The notes beneath the pieces are model-generated. The model was given only the letters and a program-made list of their open reading frames with translations, was not told the origin of the DNA and did no database searches. A program made the position numbers and the translations under genes. Shown piece by piece: positions 34,431 through 36,539 of a stretch of DNA of 53,148 bases. The DNA lies in NCBI RefSeq assembly GCF_002252705.1, contig NZ_NQLA01000019.1, positions 1 to 53,148 of the forward strand. Reading direction: 5' to 3'. This stretch comes from Vulcanococcus limneticus LL. GTDB lineage: Bacteria; Cyanobacteriota; Cyanobacteriia; PCC-6307; Cyanobiaceae. How positions within the stretch are numbered: position 1 is the first letter of the stretch; the number at the start of each line of letters is the position of its first letter.

Positions 34431-34688
34431 TCAGAGCACGCCGCGGGAGGCCAGGCCCAGGATGGTGCCGATGCCCAGGATGTGGCCCAGGCTGGTGGTG
34501 GCCAGCAGGGAGGCGTGGCTGAGGCCGCCGAAGAAGGCGTCGTTGGGGAGCTTGGCGCCGACGTTGGGCTGTTGGATCGTGGCTTTGCCGACGGCGATGG
34601 CGATCACGTTCGAGATGATCATCACCAGGCCCACCTTCGGGGACCAGGTGACCGCAGCGGGAGCGATAGCCAGCAGGGTGGGGAGCAT
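34431..34688 (-). CDS. psaK: Photosystem I reaction center subunit PsaK
   Basis: 85 residues from the ATG at 34688, the standard size. Two membrane helices are joined by a loop: PKVGLVMIISNVIAIAVGKA with KATIQQPNVGAKLP, then ASLLATTSLGHILGIGTILG. The motif SHASLLATTSLGHILG is typical of PsaK, the peripheral photosystem I subunit that binds chlorophyll and interacts with antenna. It lies 56 bases after the ligand-gated channel gene on the same strand and has its own terminator. Confidence 0.93.
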   Translation of the reverse strand: MLPTLLAIAPAAVTWSPKVGLVMIISNVIAIAVGKATIQQPNVGAKLPNDAFFGGLSHASLLATTSLGHILGIGTILGLASRGVL

Positions 34689-34744
34689 CGGATTCAAGGC
34701 GACGCCCCATCTTCTGGGCATCGGTCACCGGCTACCCCGCCCGC

Positions 34745-35890
34745 TTAAGACTTGTTCATCGCCTCCCGGCGCAGGGCCGCGACCACGCCCTGCTGCTTCA
34801 ACCGGCTGATGGCGTGATCAATGCGGGCTTCAGTGGCCCGATCCAGCTGGGGTGACAGCACGAAGGCCTGGGATTCGCTTTGCTGGTTGCGAAGCACCAG
34901 CTCAAACTGGCGGTTGCCGGAGTGCCGCAGCAGATACTCCAGCTGTTGGTCGTCGGCCAGCACGGCATCGGCCCGGTCGTCGGCCAGCAGCTGCAGGGCC
35001 TGCTCCACCCGCGGCAACGGCACGACCGTGATCGGCTCGGCCATGCCGGTGGCATTGAGTCGCTCCAGGGTGGCGCTGCTTACGCTGCCCGGGCGAGCCG
35101 CGACGCGCTGGCCGGCCAGCTCCTGGAGGCTGCGGATCGGTCGGACGCCGCTAGCCCGCGGCTCCTGCACCACGTTGATCGTGATGTAGCTCACCAGCAG
35201 CGAGGCGGTGACGATGCGAACCAGGTAGCTCACGATCACCAGCCCGTGGCCGCGGGTGGTGCTGGCGATGGTGTTGGTGCCGGGGCCGGTGGCCAGGATC
35301 TGGAACACCTTGGCGAAGCCGCGCCGTTGGCCCTGGCCATCCCGCAGGCGCTGCGGGCCCTCCACCACCCACAGCAGCCCGCTCACCAGGCCGATCGCCA
35401 CCAGGTAGCCGCCGAGCAGACGCAGCAGATCGGGTGCCAGCAGCGAGCGCAGCACGGCCTGGCCCAGCTCCAGCCGGTCGCGTTTCACCAGCACCGCCAG
35501 CCCCATCTCCTGGAAGGGCAGGCTGAAGCGGTAGCGGCCGATCCGCTCCGGCGTCACGTTCAGGCAGCCCACGCCCACATCCACCTCGCCGGCGGCGGCC
35601 GCCGCCAGCAGGCTTCTGGCGCTGTCGCGGGGCTCAAAGATGAAGGGCAGGCTCTCTTCGATGGCCAGGCGGTTCCAGAGTTCCACCGCGCTGCCGCTCC
35701 AGCGGTTGCCCCTGTGGTCGGAGCAGGGGGCGGAGCCGCTCAGGACGCCCACCCGCAGCACCGGCGGTGGAGCGGCGGCACCAGGCTGGCCGGCGAGCGG
35801 CACGATCAGCAGCAGCCATGCCAGCAGCAGCACCGCCAGCGCCAGCGCGGCCTGGAGAACGCCCCTGCGCTGGGGCTGATGGCGGCTCAT
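34745..35890 (-). CDS. GluR0-like ligand-gated ion channel
   Basis: 381 residues. After an N-terminal membrane helix (about 10-30), a periplasmic binding-protein fold begins (LRVGVLSGSAPCSD; LLAAAAAGEVDVGVGCLNVTPERIGR, a clear SBP_bac_3 block). Halfway through the fold a pore unit is inserted: helix LLRLLGGYLVAIGLVSGLLW, a re-entrant loop (GFAKVFQILATGPGTNT) and helix LVIVSYLVRIVTASLLVSYI. The binding domain then resumes (RSLQELAGQRVAARPGSVSS) to the end. This is the GluR0 topology of prokaryotic ionotropic glutamate receptors. Where GluR0 has the potassium filter TVGYGD, this protein has ATGPGT, so selectivity may differ. Related proteins occur in marine picocyanobacteria. It overlaps the DUF3593 gene by four bases. 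Confidence 0.8.
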   Translation of the reverse strand: MSRHQPQRRGVLQAALALAVLLLAWLLLIVPLAGQPGAAAPPPVLRVGVLSGSAPCSDHRGNRWSGSAVELWNRLAIEESLPFIFEPRDSARSLLAAAAAGEVDVGVGCLNVTPERIGRYRFSLPFQEMGLAVLVKRDRLELGQAVLRSLLAPDLLRLLGGYLVAIGLVSGLLWVVEGPQRLRDGQGQRRGFAKVFQILATGPGTNTIASTTRGHGLVIVSYLVRIVTASLLVSYITINVVQEPRASGVRPIRSLQELAGQRVAARPGSVSSATLERLNATGMAEPITVVPLPRVEQALQLLADDRADAVLADDQQLEYLLRHSGNRQFELVLRNQQSESQAFVLSPQLDRATEARIDHAISRLKQQGVVAALRREAMNKS

Positions 35891-36204
35891 CGCCCCGACT
35901 TGCCGCCCTGGCTGAAGCCGGCGAGCACCAGCAGGTTGCTCAGGGTCAGCAGCGACTCGGCGGCCCCGTGCAGGTGATCCACATCGGCTAGCTGGCGGCC
36001 GTAGTTGACCTGGGCCAGCACCGCGGCCACGATCGTGGCCGCCACGAACACCAGCGTCATGGCGAAACCCAAGAGCGCGAGCGGCGGGAAGCGGTGGCTG
36101 CGCCAGCCCCACCACAGGAAGGCCAGATAGGGCACCAGGGAGAGCACGAACAGGGGGGCCGGATCGAAACCGGCCAGCCCGTCGAGGAAGGCGCCGGCGC
36201 TCAT
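35887..36204 (-). CDS. DUF3593 membrane protein
   Basis: 105 residues with three hydrophobic segments (PAPLFVLSLVPYLAFLWWGW, PPLALLGFAMTLVFVAATIV and LLTLSNLLVLAG). The motif VNYGRQLADVDHLHGAAESL between the last two is characteristic of DUF3593, a family restricted to cyanobacteria and plastid-bearing eukaryotes. Its stop overlaps the start of the channel gene and its start overlaps the DUF2499 stop (both ATGA), so the three are one transcript and translationally coupled. Function unknown. Confidence 0.85.
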   Translation of the reverse strand: MSAGAFLDGLAGFDPAPLFVLSLVPYLAFLWWGWRSHRFPPLALLGFAMTLVFVAATIVAAVLAQVNYGRQLADVDHLHGAAESLLTLSNLLVLAGFSQGGKSGR

Positions 36205-36539
36205 GCGGACGGGAGGTCCTGGACTGGCGGCGCGTCGTGGCGGGGGCTGCGGCTCTGGCGCCAGATCACGAAGGCCACTGCCGCCAGGGCGATGTTGCCG
36301 AGCAGGGTGGTGCCGGCCTGGAGCACCACCAGCCCCCGCAGCCCGTCAGGGTTGTCGAACAGGTGCCAGGTGCAGGCGCACATGGCGCTCACCAGGGCCG
36401 GCAGCATCGCCAGGGCCACCCAGCTCCAGATCCGTTCGCCGCGGCGCTGGCCCCAGCGCTGCACCAGCAGCATCGCCAGGGCCCACTCGAGTACCGAGGT
36501 GACGTGGATCCACCAGGTGGGCAGGGAGAGGGCGTGCAT
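36201..36539 (-). CDS. DUF2499 (Ycf49-like) membrane protein
   Basis: 112 residues. Family features are MHALSLPTWWIHVTSVLEWA at the N-terminus, then WVALAMLPALVSAMCACTWH and LFDNPDGLRGLVVLQAGTTL. About three membrane helices are predicted and a Pro/Arg-rich tail is cytoplasmic. The Ycf49-like family is conserved in cyanobacteria and red-lineage plastids and has no clear role. It forms a coupled set with DUF3593 and the ligand-gated channel. Upstream lies a 180-base intergenic stretch shared with the divergent gene at 36722. Confidence 0.88.
   Translation of the reverse strand: MHALSLPTWWIHVTSVLEWALAMLLVQRWGQRRGERIWSWVALAMLPALVSAMCACTWHLFDNPDGLRGLVVLQAGTTLLGNIALAAVAFVIWRQSRSPRHDAPPVQDLPSA

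Follow-up and report, generated by a model that had tools for sequence, protein, structure and literature searches.

A GluR0-like receptor gene next to psaK

The window analysed here is the whole stretch of 53,148 nucleotides from contig NZ_NQLA01000019.1 of Vulcanococcus limneticus LL. It carries a gene for a GluR0-like receptor in a row of four genes, all of them on the minus strand. The features of the locus are as follows, with residue numbers referring to the receptor.

36201..36539, minus strand: DUF2499 gene, overlapping the DUF3593 gene by 4 bases
35887..36204, minus strand: DUF3593 gene, overlapping the receptor start by 4 bases
34745..35890, minus strand: GluR0-like receptor gene, 381 aa, ATG at 35890 and stop ending at 34745 (Pfam, AlphaFold2, Foldseek)
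35795..35866, minus strand: N-terminal hydrophobic helix, residues 9-32 (AlphaFold2); probable signal peptide, judging from the sequence
35477..35758, minus strand: first part (S1) of the ligand-binding domain, covering residues 45-138 (Pfam, AlphaFold2)
35723..35725, minus strand: Cys56, member of a Cys pair (clade alignment)
35564..35566, minus strand: Cys109, partner of Cys56 (59/59 clade rows)
35360..35434, minus strand: M1 helix, residues 153-177, with the conserved E177 at its end (full-length and pore-only models)
35288..35329, minus strand: pore helix, residues 188-201 (full-length and pore-only models)
35279..35287, minus strand: G202-P203-G204 loop at the filter position (codons, ortholog alignment)
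35156..35257, minus strand: M2 helix, residues 212-245 (full-length and pore-only models)
35216..35218, minus strand: R225, basic residue in the M2 hinge column (clade alignment)
34766..35143, minus strand: second part (S2) of the ligand-binding domain, covering residues 250-375 (Pfam, AlphaFold2)
34431..34721, minus strand: psaK (photosystem I), starting 23 bases downstream of the receptor stop

A sequence-only reading of this DNA had attributed to the protein the topology of GluR0, that is, a binding fold split by a two-helix pore and a re-entrant loop, and the searches and models bear this out. Pfam recognized one domain, SBP_bac_3, at residues 45-375 (E 1.7e-12), together with a weak match to Lig_chan-Glu_bd below the cutoff. 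The top PDB sequence match, the Nostoc glutamate-receptor homologue 2pyy, aligned as two separate segments, residues 63-150 and residues 247-373, as a GluR0-type split would give. In the full-length AlphaFold2 model, computed from 57 sequences (48 of the receptor clade described below and 9 GYG relatives), M1, the pore helix, the GPG loop and M2 are located between the periplasmic lobes, with a mean pLDDT of 90. The top Foldseek match to the whole model was the AMPA receptor GluA1/2 (374 columns, E 4.4e-17). When the binding domain was compared using VIA, the GluR0 core 1ii5 (Z 27.7, rmsd 2.2 Å, 219 residues) tied with glutamine-binding protein (Z 27.8). Thus, a family-3 binding domain is interrupted by two transmembrane helices and a P-loop, which is the architecture of prokaryotic GluR0-like iGluRs. 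Neither a fused output domain (Pfam scan) nor the M4 that follows S2 in eukaryotic iGluRs was found in the receptor; the model's final helix (369-379) is part of S2, and residue 381 is the last of the protein.

The pore was also predicted alone, a check that the earlier reading had proposed, with 48 clade sequences and zero GYG relatives as input. The same helix-P-loop-helix arrangement was retained (top pLDDT 79.3, the five models spanning 57.6-79.3), and all 50 Foldseek matches listed, the best 50 of 381, were structures of the K+-channel fold, with weak E values of 0.19 and above and zero matches at E 0.001. Using VIA, TRPV was on top, followed by SthK, MloK1, Kv, KcsA and NaK chains, with Z scores of at most 9.7, a value in the range where, according to the tool, likeness may mean only a common arrangement.

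The DUF2499-DUF3593-psaK order stands with or without the receptor

The 4-base overlaps of the receptor with DUF3593 and of DUF3593 with DUF2499 were verified. From this coupling the sequence-only reading had derived the idea that the three proteins form a single three-part membrane system, and the order DUF2499-DUF3593-receptor is retained in 21 of 48 named orthologs. However, DUF3593 was present in 95/95 near-complete genomes (136/151 of all those searched), versus 71/400 family genomes with a member of the receptor clade (listed matches at E <= 1.2e-70), and neither DUF3593 nor psaK was found in the flanks of 26 of the 48 orthologs, several of which sit close to the end of a contig or on a short one. 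We sampled 30 DUF3593 loci, namely those of the best-scoring 30 among the 136 genomes with a match. DUF2499 adjoined DUF3593 in 30/30 of them and psaK was in the flank in 29/30, but in 23/30 DUF3593 was followed by psaK with no receptor in between, the receptor occupying this place in 6/30, the window locus counted. A three-part system is therefore extremely improbable.

Since the DUF2499-DUF3593-psaK order stands whether the receptor is there or not, the receptor gene has either been gained by this neighbourhood of photosynthesis genes or lost by it. Where present, it may be expressed together with its neighbours, but it has no fixed association with the DUF proteins. Within genus g68, the receptor was found in genomes G150 and G169, while G091 has no clade match and no receptor at the site. 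In other genomes, for example G029, G135, G157 and G175, the receptor lies elsewhere and DUF3593 still adjoins psaK. No shared functional theme was apparent beside the non-syntenic copies in a scan of ten ORFs taken from seven of their 26 loci; six of the ten gave families, namely Thy1, thioredoxin, DUF389, ThiC, RelA/SpoT and glycosyltransferase. As a separate observation, conservation of the DUF2499-DUF3593-psaK order across Cyanobiaceae hints at a link with photosystem I for both DUF families.

The receptor belongs to a conserved clade of picocyanobacteria

A scan of GTDB genomes returned 59 relatives, 48 of which were close orthologs (L031-L078), all with cyanobacterial titles: Cyanobium, Synechococcus, Synechococcaceae, Vulcanococcus, Aphanothece, one Microcystis elabens record and MAGs. 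These 48 are the named orthologs; the clade alignment, with further genomes added, contains 59 distinct rows. In a quick tree calculated after removal of the filter and R225 columns, the clade (29 rows) was recovered with an SH-aLRT of 99. Nei-Gojobori omega values of 0.08-0.32 in 17 close pairs point to purifying selection on the receptor clade, and rule out chance or decay. Mean identity over 1128 pairs was 0.62 for the pore helix plus filter, 0.61 for M2, 0.59 for S1, 0.55 for M1 and 0.49 for S2, so that conservation of the pore loop and M2 exceeds that of S1 by a small margin and that of S2 by a clear one. E177 at the end of M1 is Glu in 58 and Asp in 1 of the 59 clade rows.

Broken copies were L077 (Synechococcus sp. 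1G10) and L172 (G167), both with a frame break, in two genomes that may be one and the same; the copy of G347, outside the 71, looks fragmented. Besides G167, an in-frame stop was flagged in seven clade matches (L160-L165, L176), which were inspected by tblastn. In six of them the alignment stops at residue 370 with no internal stop, and in L162 only 8 columns separate the stop from the alignment end. These flagged stops are read as natural ends of the genes and not as breaks, as far as the alignments tell.

Two further possibilities were discarded. A phage origin was rejected, as none of 43 pattern matches in viral contigs was confirmed as a relative. A heteromer with a second receptor of the same genome (G000) was likewise rejected, since by eye its four other SBP_bac_3 matches are not split receptors; its three Ion_trans_2 matches are other channel types, also by eye.

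A conserved GPG loop occupies the place of the potassium filter

The GPG codons are indeed at 35279-35287, where the sequence-only reading had put them, and the motif is close to fixed: it was found in 46 of the 48 named orthologs (the frame-broken L077 counted), the exceptions being L072 with GSG and L074 with GEG. Among the 59 distinct clade rows, 54 had GPG, 4 GEG and 1 GSG, and the TVGYG-type K+ filter, on which membership of Group 1 of prokaryotic iGluRs is based, appeared in 0/59. The GSG and GEG rows are nested inside the clade on the quick tree. Retention to this degree is not due to chance. The loop that follows the pore helix has the uncharged form T-G-P-G-(T/S/G)-N, and the pore helix plus loop of the window protein (188-211) contains no acidic residue, while some orthologs have Asp or Glu right after the filter or within the pore helix (e.g. 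L034, L037, L059, L062).

The register of this loop relative to GYG depends on the alignment. A large alignment pairs T201 with the Thr of the filter, which is T in 36/36 GYG rows, and G-P-G with V-G-Y. When 16 smaller MAFFT alignments were made, the Pro was one column ahead of the GYG Tyr in 12/16 and on the Tyr in 4/16, the latter all coming from runs with GxGYKM rows. A profile comparison of clade and GYG pores by hhalign gave confident pairing over M1 and its end only and, when forced, brought GPG onto GYG via a one-residue gap. The statement that GPG replaces GYG thus holds for the place, a conserved loop at the filter after the pore helix, and not for the exact residues, for which two registers were obtained.

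Could the pore still be K+-selective, with GPG preserving the carbonyl ladder of GYG? The backbone angles of Pro could fit the Tyr position, and both the forced hhalign comparison and the four alignments mentioned put the Pro directly on the Tyr. In the other 12/16, however, it falls on the first Gly of GYG, where Pro is unable to take the backbone angle needed. Moreover, the pore helix extends to T201 in the full-length and pore-only models, and no K+ motif is common to the degenerate filters of related paralogs. We consider retained K+ selectivity quite improbable. The absence of GYG from all clade rows argues instead for an altered or lost K+ selectivity, as had been predicted.

The GEG filters (L166, L167, L169 and L074, of which L074 nests within the GPG clade on the tree) resemble the filter of NaK, which is acidic.

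An invariant arginine at the M2 hinge

Non-GYG filters of several kinds are found among GluR0-like paralogs. In Cyanobiaceae, they include G[TS]G.YKM, GPSPLD, NDGID, STDHT, SSGLYKM and GGADN forms, and a QADEM form occurs in other cyanobacteria. For the comparison of the hinge column, 36 GYG, 12 QADEM and 4 GGAD rows were set apart from 25 other degenerate-filter rows; L155 and L080 (IGYDD, Ser) were omitted from the 25, and the pore-less L023, L024 and L030 were in no group. The column of R225, which we take to be that of KcsA G99 (ungapped offset), holds Arg in 59/59 clade rows and only S, G, T or A in the 52 GYG, QADEM and GGAD rows. The 25 other degenerate rows have R in 19, H in 4, A in 1 (L028) and an unread X in 1 (L145). 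All 16 alternative alignments agree in pairing R225 with the column that holds small residues in GYG rows. Counterparts of KcsA 100, 103 and 107 (ungapped offset) lie on the conserved face of M2, at whose edge R225 is found (about -70 degrees).

We also considered whether the hinge Arg is a strict partner of filter loss, and rejected this. Because the QADEM (12) and GGAD (4) rows and L155 lost GYG without having the Arg, it marks a set of paralogs and is not a requirement for giving up GYG. Two steps accounted for the hinge change on the quick tree (L024 left out), one of them probably being L028, whose Arg seems to be shifted. The Arg-bearing STDHT rows branch on the GYG side of this tree, where branches are long and warnings were given. 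In the NDGID/NTGIA-type paralogs L130, L131, L135 and L143, His replaces the hinge Arg.

A positive residue at this place raises the possibility of an anion channel, in which four hinge Arg would give the cavity a strong positive charge and offset the cation-favouring pore-helix ends, so that chloride or nitrate would pass. In edited kainate receptors, a pore-loop Arg lets some chloride through, for which we found no mention in passages of PMC13426457. The invariance of R225 where GYG relatives have small residues, the lack of acidic residues in 188-211 of the window protein and the presence of R or H in 23/25 other degenerate-filter rows are all consistent with anion permeation. However, R225 lies at the margin of the conserved side of M2, some orthologs bear Asp or Glu close behind the filter or within the pore helix, the GEG rows pair an acidic filter with the retained Arg, and QADEM, GGAD and L155 combine loss of GYG with a small hinge residue. 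Taken together, an anion channel seems rather improbable to us.

A cysteine pair in the binding lobe

Residues known to bind amino acids are retained in the clade, with R116 of S1 in 59/59 rows and position 313 of S2 being Asp in 56 and Glu in 3 of 59. C56 and C109 were both present in 57/57 clade rows reaching both columns (2/59 are gapped at C56) and in 19/25 of the other degenerate-filter rows. No row reaching both columns had a single Cys of the pair, and five STDHT rows had neither. This all-or-none occurrence suggests a Cys56-Cys109 disulfide. The C56 column is F, Y or L in GYG rows, and Phe in 48/52 of the GYG, QADEM and GGAD rows; the Phe replaced by C56 is probably a ligand-stacking residue. 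The Cys pair alters the ligand pocket, and the ligand may differ from glutamate. Neither R225 nor the Cys pair had been mentioned in the sequence-only reading.

Relation to known channels

The receptor resembles eukaryotic iGluRs (AMPA, NMDA, plant GLR) in that an AMPA receptor is the best Foldseek match to its whole model, and eukaryotic iGluR filters are also without GYG, as in the receptor clade. Unlike them, the 381-aa receptor has no amino-terminal domain and no M4. With NaK and KcsA it shares the pore-domain fold matched by the pore-only model (KcsA in Foldseek and VIA, NaK in VIA), whereas its filter sequence and hinge residue are different and, by comparison with GluR0, its topology would be inverted by the flanking periplasmic lobes.

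According to the available text of PMC13099474, GluR0 of Synechocystis (slr1257) works as a K+ channel with a Gly-Tyr-Gly filter, is located in the plasma membrane with both termini outside, and complements K+-uptake-deficient E. coli. The receptor clade is like GluR0 and Group 1 in its split family-3 lobe, M1-P-M2 arrangement, Arg and Asp ligand residues and ligand-binding domain close to 1ii5, but differs in having GPG at the filter, where GluR0 has GYG, and in its hinge Arg and Cys pair. Prokaryotic iGluRs with non-K+ P regions are already known: in the available part of Ger et al. 2010 (PMC2950845), Group 2 comprises proteins whose P regions are unrecognisable as K+ filters, with 10 records given in Table 2 by product and accession only. 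Compared with this description, the receptor resembles Group 2 in its GluR topology and a P region unlike K+ filters, Group 2 being defined by an absence rather than by any common motif. Perhaps the QADEM clade represents this Group 2 type; it differs from the GPG clade in having no hinge Arg and in pairing clearly with GYG pores (profile E 2.6e-29). New here, as a variant among prokaryotic iGluRs, is a GPG clade of picocyanobacteria with a hinge Arg and a Cys pair, on none of which our searches of open-licence PMC papers found published work; we know of no electrophysiology for this clade.

Proposed function

We favour the explanation, to which we give an even chance, that the gene product is one subunit of a channel in the GluR0 lineage, gated by ligand and not K+-selective. 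The signal peptide would export the subunit, and the two-lobed periplasmic domain would bind an alpha-amino acid and then close. By descent from GluR0-like channels, lobe closure is expected to pull M1 and M2 and thereby open an inverted, tetrameric P-loop pore. With TVGYG replaced by the uncharged T-G-P-G-(T/S/G)-N loop, this pore would lack K+ selectivity, and the change from a small M2 hinge residue to the invariant Arg would bring four Arg to the hinge, close to the loop, provided that the receptor is a tetramer like its relatives. Against this explanation, confident profile pairing with GYG pores is limited to M1 and its end, and the fold scores of the pore alone are weak.

The same divergence of the pore loop and M2 from GYG relatives, beyond what profiles align confidently, would also be expected if the pore did not conduct and the protein were a membrane amino-acid sensor or scaffold; the buried Arg could then block cations. 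Nevertheless, a dead pore would not need a loop and M2 conserved above S1 and S2, no fused output domain showed up in the Pfam scan, and the sampled non-syntenic copies have no signalling neighbour in common. A non-conducting protein is thus unlikely.

Returning to the favoured ligand-gated channel, we speculate that it is one product of a picocyanobacterial radiation in which the K+ filter was lost early and the hinge Arg (His in some) acquired, together with the disulfide in most branches. The filter loops would then have diversified (GPG, GEG, GSG, G[TS]G.YKM, STDHT and others) into ligand-gated pores of new selectivity, anions included, and an anion-preferring pore would be a first for the iGluR fold; this scenario is a long shot. 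Neuroscience has yet to explain how iGluRs departed from the K+-selective state. The bacterial paralogs show the replacement of the filter within one family, in sister genes with differing loops whose selectivity can be measured one by one, and the linked hinge Arg and Cys pair are specific targets for mutation. If the proposal is true, amino-acid-gated ion fluxes, of a sign that is not predicted, would be added to freshwater phototrophs.

Some individual paralogs deserve mention. A QADEM-like stretch, two residues shorter, stands for TVGYGD in L192-L195, L197, L201-L206 and L208. L155, a receptor-like protein of Cyanobiaceae on a long branch, has the loop SVATSGKPARRKS and is without GYG, hinge Arg and Cys pair. 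Three degenerate paralogs, L012, L028 and L152 (GSGIYKM, SSGLYKM and STDHT, respectively), are found in one Cyanobiaceae genome (G005), and LBMAG epi.bin1 carries two GPG receptors, L066 and L069, which are 81% identical.
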